From assembly GCF_026616195.1 (NCBI RefSeq), contig NZ_JANHDH010000005.1, positions 1 to 64,000 on the forward strand: a stretch of DNA of 64,000 bases, in the 5' to 3' direction. Positions 5,582-50,263 of this stretch are shown in pieces. The notes under the pieces were generated by a model. That model saw only the letters and a program-made list of their open reading frames with translations. It was not told the origin of the DNA and did no database searches. The first letter of the stretch is position 1. Every line of letters starts with the position of its first letter. The position numbers and the translations under genes were made by a program. Source of the DNA: Haloarchaeobius amylolyticus (GTDB taxonomy: Archaea; Halobacteriota; Halobacteria; Halobacteriales; Natrialbaceae).

Positions 5582-6984
5582 TCTGAGAGAATCTGATTAC
5601 ACTCAGGGGAATCTACGATATCATCCAATTGCATGTAATCGGCGATACCGTCTTCGTTGAGAAGTTGATACTGCCGAATCCACCGGACTATCTTTGAGTC
5701 GGAAAACCAATATCCTGCGTTGGAGCTATAGTACTCAATCACCCTCTTCGATTTACTCCTGAGATATTCCTTCAATGTCGGAGCCACTTGCTCTAGGAGG
5801 GCATAAACGCCATTGATGATTAAGAGGTAAAGCCTCTTTCCACCGACTTTTCTTATATAGCCTAGTAAGAATTCATCAAGTGCAGACACGATAGTTGAGG
5901 AAACACGGGCCACAACTCCATAGCTGAGTAATGCGATATCTGCTACCAAGAAACCTAATGAGATTATGAAAGACTCCATCAGAGTGGTTGCTTTCTCGCT
6001 TTCTAAATTCCCTTTATTTAATTCCTGTACACGGCAAGCGTTCGAACAAACAGAGACAAGAGAACCTAGGATAGGAGCATAACTAGCTGTCCACCGAGAA
6101 GCAGATCGGAGCATCTGATCCAGATTCTCTGGTATCTCTACATCATAGATAGAAAGAGCGGACATAACCCTATTTGTGACATTGGCTATCCTCGAGGCTT
6201 CAGAAGACAGTTCAGTAGTTGTTTTCGTACTTATTGCCCCGACACCTGAAAGGCCACAGATTGTTCCTGCCAACTGATGAAGCTCCCTTTTCGGTTCTGC
6301 TGCCTCCAACATCTGCTTGTAGAGGTTATTCATGTTCTCGGCAGCTCGTCTTTCTGCCCTTGCATATTCGTCACTGAGTATTCTAAGGTGGACATCGGCC
6401 GAAAGAGAAGTATATTTTTGACCCACTTGTTCCGGGTTCCAGATATTTGAGGCATCAAATATTAACTTGAAATCTTGTTTGGGGATTAGCAAGCGTTTAT
6501 ACTGAACTCCTTCATCAACTGCCGAGCTTGCAACTTGATTAGAATCTATACTTTGATACCCGTCACTGATGTCCTTACACCGGTCGAGCGCCTCAAGACA
6601 TCCCTTTTCGTTTTTTACATAGGTTCGATAAGATTCGTAATCGTAATCCGATATCATTCTAATGTCAAGAGGGATGTCCTCACGAGAAGCGCTGGTCACG
6701 TCCACTTCATATTCCAGTACTAAGCATTCTGATGCGATTTCTCGATCTAAAGTGGAGAATGAAACCGGAAAATAAGGGGTGTCAGAGTTGAGTTCGAGGT
6801 GGCCATGTCGTTCCAGTTCTACGACTTCACGCTTCGCACTAGGGAACGACGTCTGAGAACTTGATGATGAAATATCTTGGAGTTCGGCTTTCTGGCCGCC
6901 TACCCTCTCTCTTGAACAGCCAGAAAGCAGAGGGCTGGATGCAGCTAAGGTTGAGAGGAAAGCTCTCCTCTTGTAGGAAGTCAT
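5563..6984 (-). CDS. Tat-exported lipoprotein with helical C-terminal domain
   Basis: A 473-residue protein beginning with a twin-arginine signal and lipobox (KRRAFLSTLAASSPLLSGC), so it should be exported folded and lipid-anchored. Residues about 60-210 appear beta-rich. The C-terminal half is helical with hydrophobic stretches (GFLVADIALLSYGVVARVSS). That half shares a pattern with the end of the TSP3-repeat protein at 8801-10654: an RW/Y-T...Y-P-I-L/V-G-S segment, then a Cys-containing helix, then DIAL..GV. The two may be distantly related. AT-rich cargo between core genes. Function unknown. Confidence 0.65.
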   Translation of the reverse strand: MTSYKRRAFLSTLAASSPLLSGCSRERVGGQKAELQDISSSSSQTSFPSAKREVVELERHGHLELNSDTPYFPVSFSTLDREIASECLVLEYEVDVTSASREDIPLDIRMISDYDYESYRTYVKNEKGCLEALDRCKDISDGYQSIDSNQVASSAVDEGVQYKRLLIPKQDFKLIFDASNIWNPEQVGQKYTSLSADVHLRILSDEYARAERRAAENMNNLYKQMLEAAEPKRELHQLAGTICGLSGVGAISTKTTTELSSEASRIANVTNRVMSALSIYDVEIPENLDQMLRSASRWTASYAPILGSLVSVCSNACRVQELNKGNLESEKATTLMESFIISLGFLVADIALLSYGVVARVSSTIVSALDEFLLGYIRKVGGKRLYLLIINGVYALLEQVAPTLKEYLRSKSKRVIEYYSSNAGYWFSDSKIVRWIRQYQLLNEDGIADYMQLDDIVDSPECNQILSEWPHGG

Positions 6985-7438
6985 AATCCCACCGTCATTT
7001 CCAATATTGTTATTTCTTTTGGGTAGTAAAACCTCACTGGGTACGTCCCAAATCAGCGGCTCATTCTACCATCTCATGGGAGGGGATCAGTACCATGTTC
7101 GGACAATTTCTTCACTGTAAAGAAACCACCTGGAGAAGGCGGTCGAAGGTCACAAGTCCAAGGGTCAATGAGTTGGTCGTAGTACGCCTTCCCGGCATAG
7201 AATACCAGAGTCGTATTGATTCTGCTCAGCGTAAGTTCGCATCTTCGTGAAGTAGTCAAAGATGTAGAGGTCCTTCGGTTGAGCAGGCTCGTCTCGTTTC
7301 GACTTGCCACAGCTCACGAGGGCGATCTCTCGATGGGAATCCTAGACCATGCATCTGTGCTCTACATCTCGATAGTAAGTTCTTCTGCGTCTCCAAGCAA
7401 TCCTCAATCGAGACAATCGAGTACTATTGCTGACCAGG
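6985..7438. other. Region without a convincing gene
   Basis: Short open frames exist on both strands (7074-7310 minus, 7216-7458 plus) but they overlap each other and lack promoter signals or family resemblance. The minus-strand frame ends with a stretch (FYAGKAYYDQLI) that could be a remnant of a decayed gene. Otherwise I see only the repeat and leader that follow. Confidence 0.4.
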
Positions 7439-7480
7439 TTAACCAACAAATTCGATAGGTCTGGCTTCTCCGTTGGTTAA
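7439..7480. repeat. TTAACCAAC inverted repeat, copy 1
   Basis: Perfect 9-base arms TTAACCAAC and GTTGGTTAA separated by 24 bases. One of six in the window. It lies 37 bases before the leader element of tfb, a position suited to an upstream regulator site. Confidence 0.75.
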
Positions 7481-7516
7481 TTCAAAGGTGCTTCTGGTAC
7501 CCAACTCCCGCACGGT

Positions 7517-7545
7517 ATTTTTTCGCCCCCTGAAGGGTGCGGGGC
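7517..7545 (+). promoter_or_regulatory. GC-rich leader element, copy c
   Basis: ATTTTTTCGCCCCCTGAAGG then GTGCGGGGC, about 67 bases before the tfb start codon. Same family as the elements at 2680, 3274, 14045, 20090 and 20875. Confidence 0.6.
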
Positions 7546-7583
7546 GTTCCTAAAGAGTGCCCTGCGGAGCAGTGATTTCGACA

Positions 7584-8510
7584 ATGGCGAGTAGACACAT
7601 CTACGCGAGTGGCTTCGACGAAAACAAACGACTTCCGATCAACCTGCCGTGTCCCGAGTGCAACGGTGACCTCGAACGTGAGGAGCGACAAACCTACTGC
7701 ATCGAGTGCGGGCTTGTGGTTCGAGAGTACAACATCGACCATGGACCAGACTGGTACGACGGCCAGGGTCAAGAGTCGAACAAACACGTTGGCTCACCGT
7801 TGACGCCCGCCAGACATGACAAGGGACTCTCCTCGGAAATCGGGGAACGACGAGACGGGATGGGCAACCGACTTCCCGGGCGGACGAGGCGGCGCTTCAG
7901 CAGACTCAGGCGGTACCACAGCCAGGCCCGCCAGCCGACGAAGCGGTCACGAAACACGCTTCGAGGGCTTGTCGACGTGCGGCGGATTACGAGCGCACTT
8001 GAACTTCCGACAAGCGTCCGTGACCGGGCTGCCTCCCTGTTCCGCGAGTCGCAGTCCCGAGGGCTCCTGCCAGGACGCTCAGTCCACTCCTTCACCGCAG
8101 GGAGTGTGTACGCCGCGTGTCGGTGCTTCGACCTCCCACGGACGCTGGAGGAAGTCGAGAGCGTCGCTCGCTGTGACCGCTCTGCCCTCCGGAACGCCTA
8201 CCGCGTCATGAACGTCGAGTTGGGACTGGAAGTGACTCCCCCATCACCCGGTGCATTCATCCCGAAGTTAGCCTCCAGATTCGATGTCTCGGATTCAACC
8301 AGGCAGCAGGCAATCACACTCGCACGGCGACTCGAATCTGACGGAAAGGCAGTCGGGAAGCAACCCGTAGGAGTTGCAGCTGCGTGTCTCTACGAAGCCG
8401 GACAGCGAACTGGTGAGAGACTTCTGCAGAAAGAACTCGCGAGCGAAGCAGCTGTGTCAACCCCGACGATTCGAAGCAGACGAAACGAGATAGGAGAACT
8501 AGCTGATTGA
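7584..8510 (+). CDS. tfb: Transcription initiation factor TFB
   Basis: A 309-residue TFIIB homologue. The N-terminal zinc ribbon has cysteines at residues 23, 26, 39 and 42 (CPEC...CIEC), followed by the ECGLVV and DHGPDW segments typical of haloarchaeal TFB. Two cyclin-like repeats follow (about 110-200 and 210-300), the first containing AGSVYAACR and the second VGVAAACLYEAG. TFB recruits RNA polymerase to TATA/BRE promoters. Haloarchaea carry many TFB copies, and plasmid copies may direct plasmid-specific promoters. ATG 7584 gives the conserved MASRHIY start. A degraded relative lies at 20146-20705. Confidence 0.92.
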   Translation: MASRHIYASGFDENKRLPINLPCPECNGDLEREERQTYCIECGLVVREYNIDHGPDWYDGQGQESNKHVGSPLTPARHDKGLSSEIGERRDGMGNRLPGRTRRRFSRLRRYHSQARQPTKRSRNTLRGLVDVRRITSALELPTSVRDRAASLFRESQSRGLLPGRSVHSFTAGSVYAACRCFDLPRTLEEVESVARCDRSALRNAYRVMNVELGLEVTPPSPGAFIPKLASRFDVSDSTRQQAITLARRLESDGKAVGKQPVGVAAACLYEAGQRTGERLLQKELASEAAVSTPTIRSRRNEIGELAD

Positions 8511-28204: not shown

Positions 28205-28978
28205 CTACCGAGGACGCGGATTATCGGCGACAGCGGTGATGTATCCGTGAGCAAACTCGATTATATCGAGATCCAATTCGCTTCGGTCTTCGATGCGGAA
28301 GTGGAAGAGACGATTGCGGTGTTCTCCAATACTGCTGACCAGCTGTCGGACGAAATCCTGCCGCTCGTGAAAGAATTCGTCGAACCCGTCATCCCAGTTT
28401 TTCGAAAATAGAAACTCGTAGTGACTGAAGCTGCACTCATCGAGGCTCTCAACGAGACGTAGATGACCAGAATCCGAAGATAGATTTTTCAACACTCCTG
28501 GAACCTCATCGCCATACACATCCTGAATGATGCTACGGATGGCGTTCTCAATTCCTTCAATCAACAGAAAGGGCTGGGTTGATTTCCTCCAGAACTCGCG
28601 GATGTCGTAGTCGGTGACAATTCTGTATCCGTCTGGGGAGTCCACGAGCACGTATGAGCGTTCGCCAAGAATACTGAACAGAGTATTGAACTCGTCGTCG
28701 TGGTCGACGATTCGTGGTTTTTCAACCGCGAGTTCGGCTGTCCGGTTGCTCAGCCTCTTCGGCGCGTCAAACAGTTCGTCAGTCGCAAGCAAGGCTCTCG
28801 AAATCGACTGATACGATACGGCCCCGATGAGTTCACCACCGCGGGTGATTCCAACCTGAGAGTACTGCTGTGCCAGCATCAGTTCGATCACGTCCCGAAG
28901 GCTTGTCTCCGCAGTAACCGTCTCAAAAGAGGGAGCGTCGATCTCACCAACCGTATCAAACACCATAGGGGTACACAT
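28205..28978 (-). CDS. CBS-domain protein with C-terminal HEPN-like domain
   Basis: A 257-residue protein. Residues about 5-130 form a CBS pair (DAPSFETVTAETSLRDVIEL, then VGITRGGELIGAVSY and YVLVDSPDGYRIVTDYDI), a module that binds adenosine nucleotides or SAM. Residues about 140-250 are helical and carry RNRLFHF at 221-227, fitting the HEPN RNase signature R-x4-H. This suggests a nucleotide-controlled RNase effector of the kind used in abortive defence. It lies downstream of drmD on the same strand after 255 bases and converges with the C5 methylase. The HEPN call rests on one motif and helical content. Confidence 0.65.
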   Translation of the reverse strand: MCTPMVFDTVGEIDAPSFETVTAETSLRDVIELMLAQQYSQVGITRGGELIGAVSYQSISRALLATDELFDAPKRLSNRTAELAVEKPRIVDHDDEFNTLFSILGERSYVLVDSPDGYRIVTDYDIREFWRKSTQPFLLIEGIENAIRSIIQDVYGDEVPGVLKNLSSDSGHLRLVESLDECSFSHYEFLFSKNWDDGFDEFFHERQDFVRQLVSSIGEHRNRLFHFRIEDRSELDLDIIEFAHGYITAVADNPRPR

Positions 28979-29233: not shown

Positions 29234-32176
29234 CTAATTCTCGAAGGCGTCGATAACGACGGCCATGTTGATGAGCTCTAGTTCGTCAGGAATTACCTGT
29301 TCCTCCTCTTCAAGTCTCGCTATCTCCGAATCTCGTTCTTTCTTTAATTCCTTGAGCTGGCTCTGTGCCTTCGCGAGGACGATACGCATGTCTTCATTCG
29401 GCTTCGTGTCGCGCTCTTCGAAACGCTCGATCCGGTCTTCGATATCGTCGATACGGTACTCGAAGTATTTTTGTGTATGCTCCCGCCGAATGCGCGCTTC
29501 TCGCTGCCGGTTTTCTCGTGCCTCGGCTGCCAGACCCTCTATGACCTCCCATGCGACAGTCTCCGCCCGGTCCACGAGCTCGTCAGAACACGTAGAAATC
29601 GCTCCGACAGCGGGATAATCGTTGGCGGCGGAAGGTGGGAGACCACCTGTGATGTTGATGTCCCCGGTCTTCTCAACGCCGTCTGGTGTCACGTAGACTT
29701 GGACGAGGCGCTCAGTGACCGTCTCGCCAGTCCCCGAGAGGTATCCGACCCGGAAGTGACAGAGCAGGCCCGGTGTTTCCAGGTCTCTGCCTCCCGTTAG
29801 AACGGCGGTCTGTCCCCCGACCACATCACTGTCAAGACAGAACTGCATCATCGACCGTACGACCGGATGGTCGAGGGCGATGAATTCGAGTGACTCGTCC
29901 TCGACTGCGTTCTTCCGGTCGAACGTCGAAGCATCGTACCGGTCCTTCACTTCGCCCCCCGAGATGGGGTCCGGAACGACGAGGTCGAATATCTCACCAC
30001 CGTCCTCGGCGGGGCCGGACCGTACGTTGACAATCCGACCACCGAACTCGTTGCACACGGTCCGGACGAGGTACTCCACGTCTGCCTCGCTGATCGTGTC
30101 CTCTGCACTCTCGTCGATGATGTCGAGGATCTCTCGGTCCTCCTCACTCAGGTCAAATCGGTCACGGATGAGCAGTTCTTCGTCGACGCGGCGAACGGCC
30201 TCCTCCTGATCTTCGACAATCGCATCGAGGTCAGCAGCAATCGAATCCGCCCCGTCCTTCTGCGTGATGGCGGTCATGATCTGCTCCTCGAGGTCGACGT
30301 TCTCCAGCACCAGTCCGAGGACATCAGAACTCATGCCCAGAGTTTCCTCGATCTCGTCGAGTTTGCTCAGCAGAAGCTCAAGGATGTCGCTCTCCCGTGT
30401 ATCGTCGACGAACAGGTTCCGGATCTCGACCGTGCGTTCCTGCCCGTAGCGGTGGAGTCGACCGATGCGCTGGTCGATTCGCGTCGGATTCCACGGGAGG
30501 TCGTAGTTGACCATGATGTGCGCGAACTGGAGGTTCAGCCCCTCCCGGGCCGCGTCCGTCGCGAGCATGATGTTGGCCTCCTTCTCGAACTTCTTCAGCT
30601 GGCGTCTCCGCTCGGGCTGTGAGAGGTCGCCGTAGACTTGAGCGACGTCGTGCTCGCTGAACAGCCGGTCTCTGAGGTATTCTAGTGTGTCCGTGTACTC
30701 GGTGAAGATGAGGACCTTCTCGTCTGGGTCCTCGGCTAGGACGCCGTCGACGAACTCGCGGAGCTGTTCGGCCTTGGAGTCGACGTCGATCGCCTTCGCC
30801 TGGTTGTACAGGTCCCGGACGATTTGCAACTCCTGTTTGACCTTCGCCGGGTCACTCGATGCCGCCACACTCCCGAGCTCCTCCTCGACCTTCTCCCGCT
30901 GCGCGTCGGTCAGCATATCGGGGTCCTCGCGATACTGCGGGAGGAGACTCTTCGTGATTTGCGATAGGTCTCCCGGGTCTGCACCACCGGCCTGGATGGA
31001 TTTCATCCGGTTCTTGAGCGACTTCCTGATGGCGTGAATCGACGAAACGAGCCGCTTCTGGTAGAGGACCATCGCGAAGCCCGCGGTGTCGTTGTCCTCC
31101 CTGTGGGCGAGATTGTAGTGCTCGGTGATGTACTCGGTGACGTTCTCGTAGAGCTCCCGTTCCTCGGGTGTAAACGTGACCGGCAGCGTCTCGATGTTCT
31201 TCTCTGGGAACATCTTCGAGCCGTCGGACTCGTACATCTCGCTCTTCAGCCGACGGATCATCAGGTCCCGCAGGCCCTCCTTGTTGACGTCGTGCTCGTC
31301 ACGGAAGCGGTAGGGATCAAGCAGGGAGATCATGAAGTAAAACTGGTCGCGTTTCCCCTTGTGCGGCGTCCCGGTGAGGAAGAGAAGCCCATCCGAGTTC
31401 TGTGACACCGCCTCGCCGACGCGGTAGCGCTCGGTCCTGTTGATCCCGCGCTTGCCCTCACGGCGGGCTGTGAGGTGGTGAGATTCGTCGAAGATTGCGA
31501 TATCCCACTCTTCGTCCAGATTCTCCAGCGCCGCGAGCATATCGTCCTGCTTGGCGAAGTCGATGGAGGTGATGATACGGTCGTCGTGTGTCCAGACATT
31601 TTTGTTCGGGTGGGCACCGCGCTTCGCGTCGACGTAGTCGCGGTCGTACACGACGTAGTTGCTGTCGAACTTCTCGCGGAGTTCCTCCTGCCACTGGGTC
31701 GTGAGGGGTGCAGGAGCGACGATCAGCACCCTGTCGGCCTGTCCACGGGCGGCGAGTTCCTCGATGACGATGGCGGCCTCGATGGTCTTGCCGAGACCGA
31801 CCTCGTCACCGATTAGATACCGATGATCGTACGAGGTGAGAATCTCGTAGGCGGCCTTCACCTGGTGTGGTGCGATGTCGATGCGGCTGCTCTCCAGTGT
31901 GACGAACCGGTCCTGCCGATGGGCCAGATCGAGTTCCGCAGCCCGCGACCGGAGGTTGAAACGGTCGGGCGCGTCGAACTCGCGGTTCGCCAGTAACGTG
32001 TCGCTCCCCTCCACTTTGTCAACGACCGCGCTGGGGCGCTTGGTCTGTCCACTGTCGGTCAGAATCGTGAGCAGACACTGGCCACTCGGGCGGTGGTTGG
32101 CCTTTGCAATTTCGCCATTACCACCCGCGAAACTTACGCGGTCACCGACTTCGAATCCACATTCGCAACTGGTCAC
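29234..32176 (-). CDS. drmD: DISARM DrmD, SNF2-family helicase
   Basis: About 980 residues. Walker A is in GDEVGLGKT (123-131) and the DESH box at 230-233; helicase C-terminal motifs include VAQVYGDLSQPERR, MLATDAAREGLNLQFA and NPTRIDQRIGRLHRYGQ. The last 250 residues are charged and coiled. SNF2 helicases of this length mark class 1 DISARM as DrmD, and drmMI, drmA, drmB and drmC are all nearby. The frame is open to 32323. GTG 32176 is preferred because it leaves a 106-base divergent promoter region shared with the HNH gene, but ATG 32272 is an alternative. It acts on DNA, probably helping to recognise or translocate on invading molecules. Confidence 0.88.
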   Translation of the reverse strand: MTSCECGFEVGDRVSFAGGNGEIAKANHRPSGQCLLTILTDSGQTKRPSAVVDKVEGSDTLLANREFDAPDRFNLRSRAAELDLAHRQDRFVTLESSRIDIAPHQVKAAYEILTSYDHRYLIGDEVGLGKTIEAAIVIEELAARGQADRVLIVAPAPLTTQWQEELREKFDSNYVVYDRDYVDAKRGAHPNKNVWTHDDRIITSIDFAKQDDMLAALENLDEEWDIAIFDESHHLTARREGKRGINRTERYRVGEAVSQNSDGLLFLTGTPHKGKRDQFYFMISLLDPYRFRDEHDVNKEGLRDLMIRRLKSEMYESDGSKMFPEKNIETLPVTFTPEERELYENVTEYITEHYNLAHREDNDTAGFAMVLYQKRLVSSIHAIRKSLKNRMKSIQAGGADPGDLSQITKSLLPQYREDPDMLTDAQREKVEEELGSVAASSDPAKVKQELQIVRDLYNQAKAIDVDSKAEQLREFVDGVLAEDPDEKVLIFTEYTDTLEYLRDRLFSEHDVAQVYGDLSQPERRRQLKKFEKEANIMLATDAAREGLNLQFAHIMVNYDLPWNPTRIDQRIGRLHRYGQERTVEIRNLFVDDTRESDILELLLSKLDEIEETLGMSSDVLGLVLENVDLEEQIMTAITQKDGADSIAADLDAIVEDQEEAVRRVDEELLIRDRFDLSEEDREILDIIDESAEDTISEADVEYLVRTVCNEFGGRIVNVRSGPAEDGGEIFDLVVPDPISGGEVKDRYDASTFDRKNAVEDESLEFIALDHPVVRSMMQFCLDSDVVGGQTAVLTGGRDLETPGLLCHFRVGYLSGTGETVTERLVQVYVTPDGVEKTGDINITGGLPPSAANDYPAVGAISTCSDELVDRAETVAWEVIEGLAAEARENRQREARIRREHTQKYFEYRIDDIEDRIERFEERDTKPNEDMRIVLAKAQSQLKELKKERDSEIARLEEEEQVIPDELELINMAVVIDAFEN

Positions 32177-32282
32177 TGATAGGTACGATGTGACTCTCGG
32201 ATTTAATGTCTTTGCGGATAAAAGTCGCCACAGTGCACCCGGTGTCTCGAATGACCACTCACACTCCCCCATCCCGAGAACC

Positions 32283-33329
32283 ATGAACAGGGCCTTCAGA
32301 ATTGGCGAGCGATACCGAGACAAGGGGAGCTACAGGAATCCAGACGACCAGTTCCTGCGCTGGATCCGGGGACCGCTGAGCAGTGGCATCAAAAATACGG
32401 GTGGCATTCGCGACTTAGGGACGGACCGCAGTGACACTCCCGCGGCACTGGTACTCGTCTCGAACGACAAGGGCGTCTCTCAGCACGACGACCCGTGGGA
32501 GGACACGCTTGCCGTCGATTCGGGATACATCAGCTACTGGGGCGACGCCAAGGCAGAGAACCCCTACGACGAGTCGAAACAGAACGAGAAGATCAAGGAC
32601 GCGTTCGACAGGAAAGCGTCCGGTCGGCGTGAGGAGGTCCCGCCAGTTCTTGTGTTTCGGAAACCAGAGTCCGGTGTCGTAGAGTTCTGTGGACTCTGCG
32701 TTCCCGACCATCTCGAGATCCGTTCGTATCAGGACGACTCGGGCGCACAGATTCCGAACTATTTCTTCCATTTCTCGATCCTCAACACGCAGTCAGTACC
32801 TGTTTCCTGGCTCCACGACCGTGCACGGACGAACAGTTCTGAGAACGCCCCCGAGGTGTGGAAGCAGTGGGTGCGGACCGGGGACGTCAAGCAGTGGCCG
32901 ACCGGAGAATTGCTCGACTCTGTCGGGGGGACTATCCGTCGCTACGAGCAACCGGAAGTTGTCGTGAGCGACGCGTTCAGGGCTGAAACGTTTGAGCGGT
33001 ACGGGAAGGCGTGTACGATGACCGGCATCCGAGAAGAAGCCCTGCTCGACCTGGCACACGTGTTGCCCCGGAGCCAGCGACCAGAACTCGCCGAGCATCC
33101 GGAGAACGTGTTCGTGCTAAACTCGCTCCATCACCGGGCGTTCGACGCCGGTCTATTTACCTTGGATACTGATTACAGGATACGGGTCAGTCCGACATTC
33201 GATCCCGGCCATCCGTTTCTCAGGGAAACTATAGTCGAACAACAAGGAGATCAGCTGTCATTACCACCGGGGGTCCGGTTAGGACTAGGGTTCATCGAGG
33301 ACCTGAACGCAGATCTGGGTTGGTTGTAA
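32283..33329 (+). CDS. HNH_2 endonuclease with possible SRA-like sensor domain
   Basis: A 348-residue protein. Residues about 240-300 contain an HNH_2-type nuclease: CTMTG, LAHVLPRSQ, then NVFVLNSLHHRAFDAGLFTLD. The N-terminal 130 residues (GSYRNPDDQFLRWIRGPL, PAALVLVSNDKG, SGYISYWGDAK, ESKQNEKIKDAF) have the order of elements seen in SRA/PUA-like readers attached to HNH nucleases, which bind modified cytosine. That part is my inference. If right, this is a type IV-like modification-dependent nuclease sitting between drmD and drmMI. It is divergent from drmD and convergent with the TBP gene. Confidence 0.75.
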   Translation: MNRAFRIGERYRDKGSYRNPDDQFLRWIRGPLSSGIKNTGGIRDLGTDRSDTPAALVLVSNDKGVSQHDDPWEDTLAVDSGYISYWGDAKAENPYDESKQNEKIKDAFDRKASGRREEVPPVLVFRKPESGVVEFCGLCVPDHLEIRSYQDDSGAQIPNYFFHFSILNTQSVPVSWLHDRARTNSSENAPEVWKQWVRTGDVKQWPTGELLDSVGGTIRRYEQPEVVVSDAFRAETFERYGKACTMTGIREEALLDLAHVLPRSQRPELAEHPENVFVLNSLHHRAFDAGLFTLDTDYRIRVSPTFDPGHPFLRETIVEQQGDQLSLPPGVRLGLGFIEDLNADLGWL

Positions 33330-33387: not shown

Positions 33388-33939
33388 TTAGATACCATTG
33401 TTTTTTAACGTATCATCGATCTCATCATAAGCGTCCTCGAGCACTTCTAAGTCTGGATCGCCATCTATAACCACAGATCCGGAAGCGAACAATATAGCAA
33501 ACCAGTCTCTATTCTTTGGCCGATAAAACAAGCCCGGGAATTGTTCGGGTTCATATTCAGTTTCATCAAGTCCCAAAGAAACCGCTGCGGTGGAGAGATC
33601 GAGGGGTCGCTCTAGGTTCCCCGTTGTAACAAAGAATCGTATCTCTATGGAAGGTTCAATCTCAAGCCCGGTAATCGATTCCAGTTCATCACAAAATCTT
33701 TGGAATGTCAGGTTAGTTTCTTGGACAGATTTACCACCAGCTATACTGAATTTCCCAGAACGGAATAACATAATTGTCGGGTCAAACTCATGAGATCTTA
33801 GTACTATTGCGGCATACGATTCGGGTTCATACTGAATATCGAATTTTTCAAATTCAGCTGTCGATACCGAATGGAGATCAATCTCCGTCCCGATGGCACC
33901 ACCTCCTACTACATTTTTGATGGTTAGTTTCTCACTCAT
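33388..33939 (-). CDS. tbp: Divergent TATA-binding protein (TBP) in the DISARM locus
   Basis: A 183-residue protein, the usual length of archaeal TBP. It has two repeats: IKNVVGGGAIGTEIDL...FRSGKFSIAGGKS and FFVTTGNLERPLDLS...YEPEQFPGLFYRP...FASGSVVIDG. The second repeat keeps the diagnostic EYEPEQFPGL; the first is diverged. TBP bends TATA-box DNA and recruits TFB. It lies 126 bases downstream of drmMI on the same strand, and both share an AT-rich block. It could supply locus-specific transcription, or act as a DNA-distorting component; the latter is speculation. Confidence 0.88.
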   Translation of the reverse strand: MSEKLTIKNVVGGGAIGTEIDLHSVSTAEFEKFDIQYEPESYAAIVLRSHEFDPTIMLFRSGKFSIAGGKSVQETNLTFQRFCDELESITGLEIEPSIEIRFFVTTGNLERPLDLSTAAVSLGLDETEYEPEQFPGLFYRPKNRDWFAILFASGSVVIDGDPDLEVLEDAYDEIDDTLKNNGI

Positions 33940-42458: not shown

Positions 42459-44417
42459 ATGTCAATGGAACGTAGCAAGTCGCAGGTACTCTACCAGTTC
42501 CTGCCCGAGAACACGTTCGACTACAGCGGTCAGCGGGGCATCTGGAAGACTACGCGACTTGAAACGAGCGATGCGAGTGGTACCGTCAGCAAAGACTACA
42601 TCCTCGGTCGCGTCCTCGCACGCGTCCGAAACTGGGACGGGGGCCAGAATGGCTTCGTCTCGAACAACACCGACCACTACCACTTCGGCGTACCCGAAGG
42701 TGTCCGGGCCGAGCCGTTCCCCACGACCTACGAGTGCCAGAAGTGCGACAAAGCGCACGGGTACTACACTGCGGACGAGGTCAAGAACAACAACCCTGAT
42801 CTCACCTGTGAGCGATCCGGCTGTGACGGGAACCTCGAACAGTACCAGTTCGTGAGTGTTCACACGTGCGGGGAGATTCGTCGCCTCTACCCACAGAAGT
42901 GCCCAACTCACGGAGACCAGCACGTCATACTCAACCGCCGAAACAGTCAGCGTGTCCGGAACTTCCACTGGAGCTGCAATGTCAGTGGCTGTTCGTGGGA
43001 GACTCCCATCCGAAACTACCAGAACTGCAACTGTGATTACAGGGCTCCCGAAGCGGAGGAGAACGACGGGATGTACACGACGGTCCACCGGGCAGGGAGT
43101 GTCTTCTACCCGCACTACCTCTCCACGGTGAACCTGCACACCGCAGGCATCGGGCACCTCAGGAACTCCGAGGACGGAGCAAAGAGGGCGATCGCGAAGC
43201 TGTTCGGACTGTCCGATGCTGACTCCCTCCAGGACGTCAGCCTGCACCAGCGAACCGGAGAGGTGGAGGTGGACGACGAGAAGGTGGTGGAGATCTACAC
43301 CACACACGACGACATCACCACGCTCGACCAGGCGCGCGAGTACCTCCGTGAACAGGGGACGCTGGAGAGCCAGACCATCCTCGAGCGTCTCGGCGAGACA
43401 CTCGCACTCGATGCAGACGGCGAAACGTCCGAGCTCACCGAGGCGGGTGACGAGATTCTCCAGTACGTCCTCAGCCGCGAGTCGCTCACGACGGATACGC
43501 TGGACGAACTCGAATCGGACGCCCGGGACCGTGGCTTCTCCGACAAAGCAGACCGCATCAACAGCTACCACGACGACCTGGAGGCGCTCGGATTCGACGA
43601 CGTCCGCGTCATCGAGGACTTCCCCGTGCAGACGTTCGTCTACGGGTACACCCGTGGCAGCCGTGAGGAAGGAGAAGCGCGTATCAACGCGTTCTCACAG
43701 AGCGCGAGTGACGGGGACGGGACGCCGATTTTCGTCGACACGTCCGAGACAGAGGCGGTTCAGTTCGACCTAGACCCCGCACAGGTCCTACTGTGGCTCG
43801 CGCTCAACATCCCCGGGACGAGCGACCCGAGCGCGGTGAACGGAGACATCGTTCTCCCTGAGGTCAGCAGCCGTGACGACGCCGCGCTCGAGCACGCGAG
43901 AAGTGAAATCGAATCGCTCTCCACCGATGAGCAGTGGGCGTTCCTGCTCAACCACCTCGCGCCGGTCGAACGGTACGGCAAGTTCCAGACGGACCTCGAC
44001 GACTCGGTCGAGGAACAGGTCACGGAGCACGTGTTCCAGCTGGTCCACACGCTGAGTCACATCCTGCTGAAGCAGGCCAGTACCATCAGTGGGTTCGACC
44101 GCACGAACCTCAGCGAGTTCCTCTTCCCGCGCGCGCTATCTGTCGTCATCTACGCGAATAACCGGGAGGAATTCAACATCGGTGGGATGCACACGATGGT
44201 CGAACAGCAACTAGATAACCTCCTCGGACAGGCCGAAACGCACGGCAACGAGTGTGTGTACGACCCGGTCTGCTCACAGCGCGGTGGGGCGTGTCTCTCC
44301 TGCCTGCACGTGAGTGAGATCAGCTGTTCGTACTTCAACCAGGTCCTCTCCCGGGACTTCCTGTTCGGGAGCCGACCGAACACTGACAAGGACATCGCCG
44401 GATACTGGACACTGTAA
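42459..44417 (+). CDS. drmB: DISARM DrmB (DUF1998 protein)
   Basis: A 652-residue protein. Two zinc-binding-like regions lie early (CQKCDKAHGY...C...C and CGEIRRLYPQKCPTHG). The C-terminal 150 residues have the DUF1998 signature: HTLSHILLKQASTISGF, FPRALSVVIYANN, then a cysteine-rich end (CVYDPVC...CLSCLH...C). DrmB binds DrmA and is thought to form with it the sensing complex. It follows drmA by 2 bases and is followed by drmC after 43 bases on the same strand. ATG 42459 is chosen from the coupling to drmA. Confidence 0.93.
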   Translation: MSMERSKSQVLYQFLPENTFDYSGQRGIWKTTRLETSDASGTVSKDYILGRVLARVRNWDGGQNGFVSNNTDHYHFGVPEGVRAEPFPTTYECQKCDKAHGYYTADEVKNNNPDLTCERSGCDGNLEQYQFVSVHTCGEIRRLYPQKCPTHGDQHVILNRRNSQRVRNFHWSCNVSGCSWETPIRNYQNCNCDYRAPEAEENDGMYTTVHRAGSVFYPHYLSTVNLHTAGIGHLRNSEDGAKRAIAKLFGLSDADSLQDVSLHQRTGEVEVDDEKVVEIYTTHDDITTLDQAREYLREQGTLESQTILERLGETLALDADGETSELTEAGDEILQYVLSRESLTTDTLDELESDARDRGFSDKADRINSYHDDLEALGFDDVRVIEDFPVQTFVYGYTRGSREEGEARINAFSQSASDGDGTPIFVDTSETEAVQFDLDPAQVLLWLALNIPGTSDPSAVNGDIVLPEVSSRDDAALEHARSEIESLSTDEQWAFLLNHLAPVERYGKFQTDLDDSVEEQVTEHVFQLVHTLSHILLKQASTISGFDRTNLSEFLFPRALSVVIYANNREEFNIGGMHTMVEQQLDNLLGQAETHGNECVYDPVCSQRGGACLSCLHVSEISCSYFNQVLSRDFLFGSRPNTDKDIAGYWTL

Positions 44418-44460
44418 TCGGCTCCCAGCGTGTACGGTCACCGATTTATATACAATTCAT

Positions 44461-45405
44461 ATGAACGACGACGAATCAGAATCGACGTGGTTGCCCCTTG
44501 CTATTGCTGAGTACGTCGATCGTGACGAACAACTCCTCTCCCAGCTCGAAGGCCTGTTAGTCCTATCCGGTGGCCGTGATGAACTGGTAACACCTGCGGA
44601 GATTGCGAACGGAACAGATGTCTCCGTTGCCGCAACGACCGACGTATTTCGACAGCTCTCACAGACTGACGCGGTCACTCGCGAGTCGTTCAGAACGAGT
44701 GTCGAGGACAGTTCCTACCGGATCAACGTAGAAGCGTGCCGGAAGGTATTCGAGACAGCCAGGCACGCTGCACGCAGCGTCAACGCATACGAAGCCCGTC
44801 AACCACCAGCGACAGAGGCAACACCGCTGGTGACGTTCCCCGCGGATCCTGCCTTCGAGGAGGTGAGCCCGACATCGTTCGGGATGTCGTGGCTGATGCC
44901 AACTCTCACGCGGCAGATCAAGAGAAGCGAGACATCAATCACGCTGGTCGCACCGTTCTTTGAAAAAGACGGATTCGCACATCTCGAAGATGTGCTGCTC
45001 TCGGCCATGGAGCGAGGTGTGCGGGTGCGGGTGATTTCTCGGTATCTCACCGACACGGACTCGTACAACTACTCGGTACTGAAGTCATTCGCGGAGAGAG
45101 CGGATGAGCGAAACATCGACCGATCGCTCCTCAGGTGCGTGGACTATACTCGCTGGAGTCGTGGGACACCGCCGGCACAGCGTCGTCAAGATGGAGCTAC
45201 CCCTGCGTTCACACTCCATGCTAAGATCATGCTCTTCGACGATACAGCAGCGTACGTGGGGAGTGCGAACGTAACGGACTACGGATTTGAGCACTACCTC
45301 GAGACCGGTGTGCTCCTCGAAGGTCCACCCGTTGAGGGATTCGTTGACTTGGTGGAGTTTCTGCTCAACTCGGAGGCTGCGACAATAGTCTCATTGATTG
45401 ATTAG
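44461..45405 (+). CDS. drmC: DISARM DrmC, phospholipase D-like protein
   Basis: A 314-residue protein. The N-terminal third looks like a winged helix (TPAEIANGTDVSVAATTDVF). The C-terminal part carries one PLD-type HKD motif: HAKIMLFDD from His253, then VGSANVTDYG. In other DISARM systems drmC is a PLD nuclease-like gene that is dispensable for some activity. It is the last gene of the drmABC operon. An AT-rich TTTATATAC at 44444-44452 is too close to the ATG to be a normal promoter for it. Confidence 0.9.
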   Translation: MNDDESESTWLPLAIAEYVDRDEQLLSQLEGLLVLSGGRDELVTPAEIANGTDVSVAATTDVFRQLSQTDAVTRESFRTSVEDSSYRINVEACRKVFETARHAARSVNAYEARQPPATEATPLVTFPADPAFEEVSPTSFGMSWLMPTLTRQIKRSETSITLVAPFFEKDGFAHLEDVLLSAMERGVRVRVISRYLTDTDSYNYSVLKSFAERADERNIDRSLLRCVDYTRWSRGTPPAQRRQDGATPAFTLHAKIMLFDDTAAYVGSANVTDYGFEHYLETGVLLEGPPVEGFVDLVEFLLNSEAATIVSLID

Positions 45406-45512
45406 CATGGCCTTGTCTGATTAATGTATTCAGAATCGCCGTTAACAGCCCGCTCCAGAAACAGCACAAACTAGGAAGTGTATTCTGCCGAGGGGGTTCT
45501 GCTCGGCTGCTT

Positions 45513-46376
45513 TCAGTATCTCGGTCGTTCTGTTACAATGTCTATGAATTCTTGTCCTGAGAGATCCAGACGGTGAGCCTTCTTGAACCCACCCAGAAAT
45601 CCAGTTTCTCGATGTGACGCGGTTGAAACGACTCTGAGCTGTTCTTCAACATCTTCTGTGAATGCATGCCCCCCGGGCACAGTGTGACTTATATTATATC
45701 CCCTTCCAAGTAATTCTCCTGGGGCGCCCCCATCTACAATCATTAGATTGGGATGGATGGTTCCACTTTCTGAATATCGTTTGGCATGTGAATTCTTTGA
45801 ATGCGTACTCAGATGCGACTCCACGACATCGCGCGTGTCAGAGTCTAATTCCGAAACTATGACCCGACCATCATCGTTTGTGGGTGGGTTTTCTCCGAGA
45901 AGGGGTTCAAAGTCCACTATATCGTTCACTGTGAAATAACCGATAATGTATCGGTGAGGTGTTCCCGAGTCAGGCGTGGCCAATCCTGTATAGAAGGCCA
46001 GAACGTCGTTCTGTTCGGGATCGAGCTGTCTAATCTGGTTCTTGTTCGCAGTCTTTACTTCTCCATACGTGAACTTAGAGAAGTTTGGATCCCAGTGAAT
46101 TTGATGGGAGTTGATGTCAGCACCTCTTATTGTATCTCCCTTACTTTCTCGCGGCTTTATTTCATCCAGCACATCAGCGAGCGTGTCCTCAGAGCGGGTC
46201 GTTTTCTGTAAATGCCCTACCTCTGATTTGCGGCTAATGGTACCGAAGGTATTGGTTTCAGAAGATGGGTATGCCTCCGGGATGGGTACATATTCGAAGC
46301 TCCCGTCATCGTATATTTGTGGATACGGACTCGAATTGGACTGATCTGCCCCAACACCGATGAGTACGACCGTCAT
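45513..46376 (-). CDS. Nmad3-like putative nucleotide-modification protein
   Basis: A 287-residue protein with the start typical of the nucleotide-modification-associated domain 3 family as I remember it: VVLIGVGADQSNSSPYPQIY then FEYVPIPE. Later segments also fit: HWDPNFSKFTYGE, VLAFYTGLA, HRYIIGYFTV, NSHAKRY and LMIVDGGAPGELLGRGY. Nmad proteins were described next to DNA base-modifying genes, but a reaction has not been shown. The gene is AT-rich, convergent with drmC and divergent from the next gene, with 58 bases between. It suggests that modification beyond methylation occurs here. Confidence 0.7.
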   Translation of the reverse strand: MTVVLIGVGADQSNSSPYPQIYDDGSFEYVPIPEAYPSSETNTFGTISRKSEVGHLQKTTRSEDTLADVLDEIKPRESKGDTIRGADINSHQIHWDPNFSKFTYGEVKTANKNQIRQLDPEQNDVLAFYTGLATPDSGTPHRYIIGYFTVNDIVDFEPLLGENPPTNDDGRVIVSELDSDTRDVVESHLSTHSKNSHAKRYSESGTIHPNLMIVDGGAPGELLGRGYNISHTVPGGHAFTEDVEEQLRVVSTASHRETGFLGGFKKAHRLDLSGQEFIDIVTERPRY

Positions 46377-46434
46377 ATGACGAAGTCATCAGGTAGCAAT
46401 AAAGTATTTCTCACTGTTAATACAGTATGACACA

Positions 46435-47019
46435 ATGACAGACCCTGGGCCTGAGGAGCCGACAGGACGGGTAATGAAATTCATCCACGAGGGAGAATCA
46501 AAATTACCGGTACGGGATATCAAAGCGAACTACAAAAGTAGCACAGCAAAAGAACCGTATATCGAATACGGACTGGATAGAGGATTGGATGAGGGAGTAA
46601 TAATTGGGGCGGAGAATTACTGGGCTTGCTGTTATCAAAACGCTGTTGAGAAAGTGGTTGAACTTGATCAAGAGTACTTATTCCTAGCATCATACCCCCA
46701 CCATGCTGGAGGAGACGCGACTGAAAACGTTATTGTTGGTTATATTCGACATGAAGATCATGAATGGAGAACCGGAGATCGTGTTGCCGTCATTGGTGAA
46801 ATGAAACTGTATCCGTTTGAGCACGGCATCCCTCCGAGTGAGTTCGATTACAAACCAACGAAATGGTCTCTTGGTCCATATGGGCGAAATTTGAATGCCT
46901 CTCAAACGCAGGAAGTTATCGAGCATTTCAGCCAATTTCCAGATGTTACAGAAGAATGCCTAGAGCGAACGTTGGAACTTAAGCGTGAGAGCGGTTCCGG
47001 TGGGAATAGTAAGTGCTGA
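46435..47019 (+). CDS. Unrecognised protein paired with Nmad3-like gene
   Basis: A 194-residue protein of no family I know. Its middle, LFLASYPHHAGGDATENVIVGYIRHEDHEWRTG (read in two pieces around 80-112), parallels in order the VLAFYTGLA...HRYIIGYFTV segment of the divergent neighbour, so the two may share a small-molecule or base-binding fold. AT-rich like that neighbour. It ends with a charged helix and a C-terminal cysteine. Possibly a modified-base reader; this is speculative. Confidence 0.55.
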   Translation: MTDPGPEEPTGRVMKFIHEGESKLPVRDIKANYKSSTAKEPYIEYGLDRGLDEGVIIGAENYWACCYQNAVEKVVELDQEYLFLASYPHHAGGDATENVIVGYIRHEDHEWRTGDRVAVIGEMKLYPFEHGIPPSEFDYKPTKWSLGPYGRNLNASQTQEVIEHFSQFPDVTEECLERTLELKRESGSGGNSKC

Positions 47020-47065
47020 ATTCTGTCACCCATAACATTCCAACCATGTACGAGGAAGTAGAAAA

Positions 47066-47845
47066 TCAAGACCAGTATTCCTTGAAGTAGGTGCAACTAG
47101 GAGCGAGGGAGCAACTGGGACATTCCGGGTTGTCATTCGTACAGATGAGGGCACCGAGGTCTAACAACGCCAAATTGAATGCTCGAGCGAGTGCCGGGTC
47201 CGACGGAACGAGCGCGTCAAGAAGGCGATAGACACGGGTGCTCTTGTGCGGCTGCGCCGGTAGGGGATAATCGAAGACACGGCCGGTAATCCTCGCAGTG
47301 TTGGTATCGACCAGTGCCAGCGGTTCGTCGAACGCAAATAGCAAACAAGCACGGGCGGTGTAGGGTCCTACTCTCCACGGTCGCTGGAGAGCCTGAAGGT
47401 CTTCTGGCACCTCACCGTCATACTCTGCACAGAGTTCCGCCGCTTCACGAAGGGTCCTGACCCGATGATTTGCGAATCCGAGAGGACGAACGGTATTCTC
47501 GAGTTCTATCTCCTCTGCGGTGATGACCTCCTGGGGGTCAGGGAAACAGTCGAAGAAATCAGCATAGAGATCGGCGACTGCATCACTTCGGGTTCGCTGA
47601 AGCAGTATCTCAGTCGCATAGATGTGCCATGAATCGGTAGCCAACCGCCACGGATATTCTCGCCCGTACTCTTCGAGCCACTCCAGAAGGGGAGGAATCG
47701 CCTGTATGAATGATTCAACTGCGTTGTCTGCATTCGGCACGTCAGCTGATGCCAGCTCCTTACTGGCGGTTTTCCTGTCGATGTATTCGTGTAGTTCGTC
47801 AACTGTGACCTGCGTACGTCCGAACGGGAGATCAACAGTTGTCAT
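47066..47845 (-). CDS. Mig-like HhH-GPD mismatch (T/G) DNA glycosylase
   Basis: A 259-residue HhH-GPD glycosylase. REYPWR leads into TEILLQRT (78-85), VGPYTA (159-164) has Tyr162 where endonuclease III has its catalytic lysine, and LVDTN has Asp180, the conserved aspartate. The end has an iron-sulphur loop C-x6-C-x2-C-x5-C (235, 242, 245, 251). EILLQRT and the Tyr/Asp pair fit Mig, the thymine glycosylase encoded beside a C5 methylase on a Methanothermobacter plasmid, better than MutY. It should remove thymine from T/G pairs made by deamination of 5-methylcytosine. It is divergent from the fused methylase gene, 174 bases away. Confidence 0.85.
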   Translation of the reverse strand: MTTVDLPFGRTQVTVDELHEYIDRKTASKELASADVPNADNAVESFIQAIPPLLEWLEEYGREYPWRLATDSWHIYATEILLQRTRSDAVADLYADFFDCFPDPQEVITAEEIELENTVRPLGFANHRVRTLREAAELCAEYDGEVPEDLQALQRPWRVGPYTARACLLFAFDEPLALVDTNTARITGRVFDYPLPAQPHKSTRVYRLLDALVPSDPALARAFNLALLDLGALICTNDNPECPSCSLAPSCTYFKEYWS

Positions 47846-48019
47846 TGTTCAATCTACGGATAGCCTACGCTTTAGAGAAGCGGTCCGCGAATCAATTTCT
47901 GTACTGCTATCCTGAGAGAGCTGTCATCAGCCGCGCTCAAGATGTGTCCCACCGGTTGCCTGAATTTCTGGAACCGCATGACCAGGAAGTTTAAATCATT
48001 CCACGGAGAAAAGGTGCTT

Positions 48020-50263
48020 ATGTCCGGACCGGCCACTTCTTGCGGTTCTCCATCCGAGCAGGTACGTTCGGCTCCAGAAGCCGAACGCAGACTGCATAAA
48101 CAGATACTTCTGGATAATATTGATTTCCTCATAGACACCCTGACTGCGGAGCACGTTCGGCGTCAACAGCATCCTCCTGCCGGCTGCCCTCGTGCTACGC
48201 CTGAAAACATCGCTCGAAATCAGTCAAAAACCGGTGACCCCTGCCAGTATCACGCCATTCAGAGGAGGGGTAACGAGTCAGACAAAGAGTGTCCGTGTGG
48301 CGACCCGCTGGTTGACAGCGACGATCCGCTTGATACCGTTGCTACGGTAGTCCTCGGGAAGCAGGCGATCTCTCCTTCAGAACGGTTCTTCGACCGAGTC
48401 CCGAGACGGACAGTGGCCAACCTCCGCGAGAGCCACGGGACCTGGGAAAACATCGCAACGCTGGATCAGGAAGACCTGCATGAGGCCGTCCGTGCTGCAA
48501 GTCCTCGGAAGGGAGTGAGCACGAAACGGATCGAGTGCTTGCAGTCACTGCTGGAGGCTGTGACGGAGACACACTATACAGAGGGTACAACACTTCGTGG
48601 GTTCTCAAGAGTCCAGTACTCCACCTATGTCAAATTCCTCCAAACTATTCCAGGCGTCGAAGAGCAGGACGCTTGGTGGATCGTTCAGACCGCATTTGAC
48701 AAGCCGGTCTGGCCCGCCGATCCGCTGATTGACGAGCTGCTGGTCTCGCTGGGTTTGCTTGACCCCGCTTCTTCGCTGGATTCCACCGGGCGTCACACCG
48801 ATTTAGAGGACGAGCTGATCGATCGTCAGATTCCAGTCCTGTACCGTGCGCTTGCAACCCACGCTGTCAATTCGGATGCTGGTAACTGTGGTGAAAACTG
48901 TGAAATTCGGAAGTTCTTGCTAACATACCGGCTTGAGGAACAGCGAAAAGAGCGTGAGGGCCCCGTTGTCGTCGACCTGTTCGCCGGAGCAGGAGGACTG
49001 TCACACGGTCTTTCTCAAGCAGGATATGATGTCCGCTGGGCGATTGATATCGAGCCCGATGCGGTTGCGACATACCGCCTGAACCATCCGGAGATTCCAC
49101 ACCAGAATGTAGTCTGTGGCGACGTGAGAGAGATCGATATCGCTGCGGAGGTTCGGAATGCTGCGCCCGACCCGGACGTTATTGTGGGAGGGCCCCCCTG
49201 TCAGTCCCTCTCTCAGGCAGGCTACCGGTCTCGTCGAGCGAAAGACGACGACTATAGCGTGCTTGACGACGACCGGACGAACCTGTACACAAAGTATGTC
49301 GAGGCTGTCGACGAGCTTCGTCCGAAGGCCATCGTGATGGAGAACGTGGAAGGGATGGTCAACAAGGTCGGAGATACGGATGTACGCGTAATCGACTGGA
49401 TAATCGAGGACCTGAAAGCTCTTGATAAGAACGGAGAAGGGTACCAGGTCGGGTTCCGCCTTCAGGACATGACTGAGCTCGGAATTCCGCAGGAACGTGA
49501 ACGTGTGCTGCTCATCGGAATTCGGAACGATCTCGTCGTCAGTGAAAACGAGGTAGAGGACCTGCTGGATAGTCTCAAAAGCACGGATTGTGACCGGACC
49601 ATCCGACAGGGTCTGTCCGGACTTCCACGTCTACGTCGTGGAGAAGGCGGGCGAGTCCTGGCCGAGACTGGCCGAGGGTCGAAAAGCCAGTACGTGAAGC
49701 AGAACAGACTCCATGAGGGGACCGAACTCTGCTTCAATCACCAGGCACGCGAACACCCGATGGAAAAAGACAGAATCCTGTTCGATGAAGGGCTACAGCC
49801 GGGAGACACCGGATGGGATGTCAAGTACGACTCTGATGGCGAGTATGCCGAATATATCGAGTACGACGTCGGAACCGCCGACAATCCTCGCTTTCGGGAC
49901 AAATATCGGAAGCTCGAATGGTCGAAACCCTCACCGACAATAGTCGCTCACCTCGCCAAGGACGCGAATGGGTTTGTACTACCCGACTACTACGAACACG
50001 CCCGTCCGGACCGTGAACATGCAGACCCTAGACGAAACCGAGGAATTACCCCTCGAGAGGCAGCGAGATTGCAATCGTTCCCGGACCACTATATCTTCCT
50101 CGGGCCGTTTACCAGCTGGTTCCGTCAGATCGGGAATGCAGTCCCTCCTGTCGCAGGAAAAATTATCGGTACTGCTCTGTGGGCCGTATTTTCTGATGAG
50201 ATTGATGAGACCGCTCCCACAGCTGAACAGCATCCGGCTGCGGAAATTGCATCCGATGACTGA
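48020..50263 (+). CDS. HhH-GPD glycosylase-like domain fused to DNA cytosine-5 methyltransferase
   Basis: A 747-residue protein. Residues about 100-300 have a HhH-GPD layout: DTVATVVLGKQAIS, the hairpin LQTIPGVEEQDAWWIV (207-222) and PADPLIDELLVSLGLL with Asp234/Asp238. The lysine of endonuclease III is absent, and the canonical four-cysteine cluster is not seen, although CPC (91-93) and C-x3-C (290-294) remain. Residues 316 to the end are a complete C5 methylase: DLFAGAGG, GGPPCQS with Cys394, MENVEG, QERERVLLIG and GNAVPP. A TTTAAAT box at 47990-47996 supports leaderless ATG 48020. The first domain may guide or repair the same sites; it may lack activity. Confidence 0.85.
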   Translation: MSGPATSCGSPSEQVRSAPEAERRLHKQILLDNIDFLIDTLTAEHVRRQQHPPAGCPRATPENIARNQSKTGDPCQYHAIQRRGNESDKECPCGDPLVDSDDPLDTVATVVLGKQAISPSERFFDRVPRRTVANLRESHGTWENIATLDQEDLHEAVRAASPRKGVSTKRIECLQSLLEAVTETHYTEGTTLRGFSRVQYSTYVKFLQTIPGVEEQDAWWIVQTAFDKPVWPADPLIDELLVSLGLLDPASSLDSTGRHTDLEDELIDRQIPVLYRALATHAVNSDAGNCGENCEIRKFLLTYRLEEQRKEREGPVVVDLFAGAGGLSHGLSQAGYDVRWAIDIEPDAVATYRLNHPEIPHQNVVCGDVREIDIAAEVRNAAPDPDVIVGGPPCQSLSQAGYRSRRAKDDDYSVLDDDRTNLYTKYVEAVDELRPKAIVMENVEGMVNKVGDTDVRVIDWIIEDLKALDKNGEGYQVGFRLQDMTELGIPQERERVLLIGIRNDLVVSENEVEDLLDSLKSTDCDRTIRQGLSGLPRLRRGEGGRVLAETGRGSKSQYVKQNRLHEGTELCFNHQAREHPMEKDRILFDEGLQPGDTGWDVKYDSDGEYAEYIEYDVGTADNPRFRDKYRKLEWSKPSPTIVAHLAKDANGFVLPDYYEHARPDREHADPRRNRGITPREAARLQSFPDHYIFLGPFTSWFRQIGNAVPPVAGKIIGTALWAVFSDEIDETAPTAEQHPAAEIASDD

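Follow-up and report, generated by a model that had tools for sequence, protein, structure and literature searches.

Two adjacent genes of a haloarchaeal DISARM locus, one encoding an Nmad3-family protein and the other a protein of an unnamed family (P2), form a genuine conserved pair that is sometimes fused, and this pair is an exchangeable cargo of the slot between drmC and drmMII. We propose, with a probability of about 0.52, that Nmad3 and P2 constitute a two-reader module for modified nucleic acid which DISARM may or may not carry, and which does not itself make a modification.

An exchangeable slot in the DISARM locus

The window, that is the whole 64,000-nucleotide stretch of Haloarchaeobius amylolyticus DNA analysed here, belongs to a 73.7-kb contig whose DISARM locus contains a DrmD/BrxH-like helicase, an AspBHI-N/HNH protein, DrmMI, DrmA, DrmB and DrmC. 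To the right of DrmC follow the Nmad3–P2 pair, a MutY/Mig-like glycosylase and a C5-cytosine methyltransferase, in this order:

44314..45405, plus strand: drmC, PLD nuclease of DISARM (DrmC, 1.2e-14); left boundary of the slot
45513..46376, minus strand: Nmad3-family protein, 287 residues (PF18754, 74.2 bits), predicted PUA/EVE-like fold, clade A
46377..46434, no strand: divergent intergenic segment of 58 bp, AT-rich, between both start codons
46435..47019, plus strand: P2, unnamed family, 194 residues, predicted YTH/EVE-like fold, C-terminal Cys
47066..47845, minus strand: MutY/Mig-like HhH-GPD glycosylase (PF00730, PADLOC PDLC03398; TIGR01084 below cut-off); right boundary of the slot
47942..50263, plus strand: C5-cytosine methyltransferase, DrmMII-like (PF00145, 5.1e-59; DrmMII, 4e-67)

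The sequence-only reading of this region had proposed both open reading frames of the pair within an AT-rich segment between drmC and the glycosylase, and this description is borne out: the frames were confirmed at 45513–46376 on the minus and 46435–47019 on the plus strand, and the G+C content of the segment that they occupy is 46.6% (window, 54.5%), a value undercut by 12% of equally long segments. The 58-bp spacer, with 34.5% G+C, is presumed to act as a bidirectional promoter. No repeats were found flanking the inserted segment. The Nmad3 protein passes the Pfam gathering score of PF18754 (74.2 bits for a cut-off of 27) and matches phrog_34025 of PHROGs (1.6e-33). The PF18754 match is confined to positions 2–143 of the 247 of the profile, corresponding to residues 3–154 of the protein; the window protein keeps the N-terminal core of the family, whereas its C-terminal part has diverged and its pairing with P2 sets it apart. 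For P2, searches of Pfam, PADLOC, PHROGs, NCBIfam and PDB sequences gave no match. Searches for viral relatives of the pair yielded none by tblastn in INPHARED and none in IMG/VR, and the literature search on Nmad3 returned no relevant article. In every full-length haloarchaeal P2 protein the last residue, after a disordered tail, is Cys, usually as part of Gly-Cys; the terminal Cys is absent from the Heimdall, Bacteroidetes and Ignavibacteriae copies.

In relatives of this DISARM subtype the interval between drmC and drmMII (45406–47941 in the window) behaves as a swap slot of differing contents. The portion between drmC and the glycosylase, 1.66 kb long in the window, is empty in genomes G159 and G208, where the two genes are convergent and their stop codons overlap by 4 bp. 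Genome G349, whose DrmA, DrmB and DrmD are 96–97% identical to those of the window, carries in the slot an 821-residue DUF262-type protein (PADLOC HEC-06/Orf5) and gives no glycosylase match, and G188 carries a 141-residue protein resembling a PD-(D/E)XK nuclease. The pair thus sits inside a complete-looking locus of the known DISARM composition (drmA/B/C, drmMI, drmMII) but is not part of its core, since the slot is empty or otherwise filled in relatives. A strong drmA (E < 1e-100) is present in 52 of 391 Halobacteria genomes, and P2 lies within about 15 kb of it in three (G000, G114 and G260) of the ten genomes that possess P2, that is in three of the 52 with drmA. This proximity is far above random placement, with P about 0.01 if island clustering is taken to raise the chance fifty-fold. 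Nearly all DISARM loci examined are without P2, which is therefore an accessory and not a core component. In the co-occurrence analysis with DISARM that the sequence-only reading had suggested, regular presence does not hold, the pair being optional, and what stands is the linkage of Nmad3 and P2 to each other.

The glycosylase was considered as a further member of the pair and rejected, since G159, G208, G145, G222 and others have it together with DrmMII but lack the pair. Mig-type enzymes repair deaminated 5-methylcytosine, and the association with DrmMII in loci lacking the pair fits such a repair function, not hypermodification.

Three other genes of the window deserve mention. Positions 31875–33329, inside the DISARM locus with its C5-cytosine methyltransferases, encode a modification-dependent restriction enzyme with an AspBHI N-terminal domain and an HNH domain, which is also present in G349, G188 and G208. 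The DISARM cluster also encloses, at 33388–33939, a gene for a TATA-box-binding protein, and one encoding a 31% identical protein is similarly placed in G208 (locus L067). The product of 28205–28978 resembles the C-terminal part of the NCBIfam model DS11_antiphage (CBS domain anti-phage protein), with a score below the curated cut-off.

Pairing and fusion across genomes

Relatives of P2 were found in 10 of the 391 Halobacteria genomes, the window's own counted in, and outside this class in Heimdallarchaeota, Bacteroidetes and Ignavibacteriae. In five haloarchaea a single open reading frame of about 430 residues joins Nmad3, as the N-terminal half, to P2, as the C-terminal half, and in four further loci the two genes are adjacent on the same strand:

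L045, Natrinema mahii: fused
L046, genome G280: fused
L047, plasmid of Halorientalis sp. IM1011: fused
L051, Salinarchaeum laminariae: fused
L058, Halosimplex pelagicum: fused
L048, Halorubrum halophilum: adjacent, same strand
L050, genome G129: adjacent, same strand
L060, Heimdallarchaeota MAG: adjacent, same strand
L062, Bacteroidetes MAG: adjacent, same strand

The P2 and Nmad3 genes overlap in three of the four adjacent loci. Of the remaining copies, one is a truncated P2 frame beside an intact Nmad3 (L049, genome G114) and one lies at a contig end (L059, Ignavibacteriae). Random occurrence of the two genes, which the sequence-only reading had named as speaking against its proposal, is not what we observe: with respect to each other they are adjacent or fused. 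In loci L043 and L044 a different protein of 210 residues (L043:8894–9526, no library match) precedes P2 in the place of Nmad3, and its sequence looks like that of a ribbon-helix-helix domain followed by a PUA-like domain. The P2 of the window shares with the P2 of these two loci an insert of 13 residues before the AENY motif and groups with them in the tree (support 91/94), whereas the nearest relatives of its Nmad3 are those of L048 and L050. These differing nearest relatives suggest that partners have probably been exchanged.

Nmad3 itself is far more widespread, being present in 309 of the 391 Halobacteria genomes, mostly as a single copy and mostly without DISARM; for contrast, Pfam EVE was found in 3 of 116. 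The tree separates two housekeeping clades of haloarchaeal Nmad3, and no informative gene recurs widely in the flanks of these genes; the most frequent clear neighbour is a hexapeptide-repeat protein in 9 of 30 loci. The near-universal occurrence of Nmad3 in haloarchaea makes a basic role in defence improbable. One may ask whether the pair is a standalone regulator, a toxin-antitoxin-like pair or a translation factor that has simply found a place in defence islands, P2 tuning a housekeeping role of Nmad3 that is possibly RNA-related. The near-universal, single-copy occurrence of Nmad3 in two housekeeping clades is in line with this idea, as is the Bacteroidetes pair, which is located among ordinary genes. 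Against it, P2 occurs sporadically and in few genomes, the Nmad3 partners of P2 are spread over three distant regions of the tree (window type, fusion type and Heimdall/Bacteroidetes), both window proteins are on long branches (for Nmad3 a terminal branch of 1.09, the median being 0.21), and many P2 loci adjoin restriction or nuclease genes. We regard this explanation as improbable, though to be kept in mind.

Remote homology and predicted fold

Single-sequence BLASTP detected nothing between P2 and Nmad3, and a smaller, clean comparison of their profiles was not significant. A larger profile-profile alignment, built from 13 P2 and 24 Nmad3 sequences after removal of gappy columns, is collinear over approximately 160 columns with a score of 33.6–33.9 (P 2.3e-4 for 33.9), a value that none of 200 column-shuffled controls reached. 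When the fused proteins were trimmed or removed in order to exclude shared boundary sequence, scores of 24–34 were obtained, above all 60 shuffles in each of four variants. The alignment superposes the motif ...YIIGYF... of Nmad3 on ...YIVGYI... of P2, so that the similar central pattern noted earlier in the two window proteins, a hydrophobic strand followed by IGY or VGY, turns out to be a family-wide feature. Nmad3 and P2 are thus probably remote homologues, as judged from these profiles.

Searches of PDB sequences with single proteins and with profiles gave nothing useful, and neither protein matches Pfam EVE, YTH or ASCH at E <= 1; profile comparison with three haloarchaeal EVE domains gave weak scores (P 0.04–0.27). 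Structure prediction of both proteins and their comparison, which the sequence-only reading had suggested, led in each case to neighbours from the PUA clan, with all scores falling short of the level regarded as safe (Foldseek E <= 0.001, Z 8). The AlphaFold model of P2 is of moderate confidence (pLDDT 73.9, pTM 0.76), and its 11 best Foldseek matches in the PDB are all YTH domains (best E 0.011). The VIA comparison of this model gave Z 7.4 for YTH domains (rmsd 3.3–4.3 over 121–141 residues), 7.2 for MJECL36, 7.0 for PH1033 and 5.9 for an ASCH protein. For the Nmad3 model (pLDDT 89.4, pTM 0.88), Foldseek places McrB N-terminal domains and ASCH proteins on top (E 0.11–0.36), and VIA recovers PUA-clan entries of EVE, YTH and ASCH type, among them MJECL36 (Z 7.2, rmsd 4.9 over 138 residues), PSPTO5229 (2eve, Z 6.0) and THYN1 with 5mC DNA (Z 5.9); among viral models the first neighbour is an ASCH protein. 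Characterised members of the PUA clan mostly bind modified bases, and what lends weight to the assignment, for which no single score is conclusive, is that two probable remote homologues, modelled independently, reach this one clan. EVE, YTH and ASCH proteins, including the McrB N-terminal readers and THYN1, are the nearest structural neighbours of both models, from which the pair differs in having no match to the curated sequence models, in Z scores below 8 and in that two different putative readers make up one module, sometimes one chain.

The same fold could also house an enzyme, for instance an ASCH/YqfB-like amidohydrolase or ribonuclease whose substrates would be modified nucleosides or RNA and whose active site would need both proteins. 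This rival has to be taken seriously, since many polar residues are invariant in each family (H18, R27, E40, E44, E60, N61 and C66 in P2; H94, D96, Y104, D124, N195 and H197 in Nmad3), conserved H, D, E, R and C among them, and catalysis might make use of these. Both models, moreover, have ASCH entries as structural neighbours, one of them the Zymomonas ASCH protein. YTH, EVE and McrB-N entries score equally well or better, however, and no enzyme family is matched by sequence; we consider an enzymatic role rather unlikely by comparison with a reader.

Genomic contexts of the pair

The neighbourhoods of the pair vary widely. In Natrinema mahii (L045) the fused gene adjoins a NucS-like gene, and its surroundings also include TGT, DUF6884, a GHKL ATPase and genes resembling DpdH and DpdJ; the region L045:7–16302 is possibly a divergent 7-deazaguanine DNA system. 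In L047, QueC and a nucleoside deoxyribosyltransferase-like gene are located beside the fusion. L048 and L050 share a gene for a protein of 339–342 residues that has no library match and in which a PD...ExK...Q motif was read by eye, making it a probable PD-(D/E)XK nuclease. In L048 this gene (6982–8001, 339 residues) adjoins P2–Nmad3, and in L050 it is on the other side of the pair; Mrr and PDC-M57B are also in the vicinity in L048. Type I specificity-like/NOV_C and PRTase-CE genes lie beside the pair in L060, and no defence genes were seen beside that of L062. Nuclease-like neighbours occur in L045, L048 and L050; in the window the one nuclease gene next door is drmC.

These surroundings bear on the suggestion, raised in the sequence-only reading, that the two proteins take part in base hypermodification and contribute to producing such a base for the island. 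Consistent with such a role are the name of the family, in which Nmad stands for nucleotide modification associated, and the 7-deazaguanine-type genes (TGT, DUF6884, DpdH/DpdJ-like, QueC) beside two fused copies. On the other hand, no base-modifying catalytic domain was recognised for Nmad3 or P2 in Pfam, NCBIfam, PHROGs or PADLOC, the predicted fold is a binding fold, no 7-deazaguanine gene occurs among the scanned neighbours in the window, and the methyltransferases and the glycosylase occur without the pair. Together with the near-universal occurrence of Nmad3, mostly without DISARM, and the absence of the pair from most DISARM loci, these observations do not sustain hypermodification, which ranks last in likelihood among the readings and which we hold to be very improbable. 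Of the earlier suggestion that the proteins make or read a modified base, the first half is disfavoured by the missing catalytic family, and the second is favoured by the PUA/EVE/YTH neighbourhood, by the conservation of the pair and by its restriction or DNA-modification neighbours in several loci.

Modification-dependent restriction is documented to use EVE, DCD and YTH domains as its specificity modules, and standalone EVE proteins accompany archaeal restriction systems (PMC7641849). As in Type IV restriction (EVE-HNH, EVE-McrB), the predicted reader adjoins a nuclease gene (NucS-like, PD-(D/E)XK-like, Mrr) in several loci; in contrast to it, the putative reader and nuclease are here separate genes, and the candidate nuclease partner varies. 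We found no article that links DISARM to standalone EVE proteins of haloarchaea; in one article a forthcoming publication is announced that deals with McrBC and DISARM-like systems.

A proposed two-reader module and its implications

In the two-reader model that we prefer, Nmad3 and P2, as divergent PUA/EVE/YTH-like members, would act together, as a complex or, where fused, as one chain, and would read modified nucleic acid and make no modification. The pair would flag DNA (or RNA) that carries, or that lacks, a particular mark, candidates being modified bases made by viruses or the N6-adenine and C5-cytosine methylation of the island itself. The flagged target would then be passed to a nuclease, which may be DrmC together with the DISARM complex here and a NucS-like or PD-(D/E)XK enzyme elsewhere. 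What we infer in this model is the binding of modified bases, the identity of the base, the physical interaction of Nmad3 with P2 in this organism, the coupling to a nuclease and the role in defence.

More tentatively, and at clearly lower odds, the pair may be an undescribed cross-domain unit of two readers that serves varied immune machines (DISARM, Dpd-like loci, pairs with PD-(D/E)XK or NucS nucleases) and whose ancestral reader would be the haloarchaeal housekeeping Nmad3. If this were true, DISARM would gain an optional extra sense for virus-modified DNA. To our knowledge, how DISARM-type systems handle virus genomes with modified bases is an open question, and an optional reader module in DISARM would make it testable by deletion of two genes. 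Moreover, Nmad3, present in about four in five haloarchaea, would obtain a first structural idea, and P2 would represent a new small family of archaea and bacteria.
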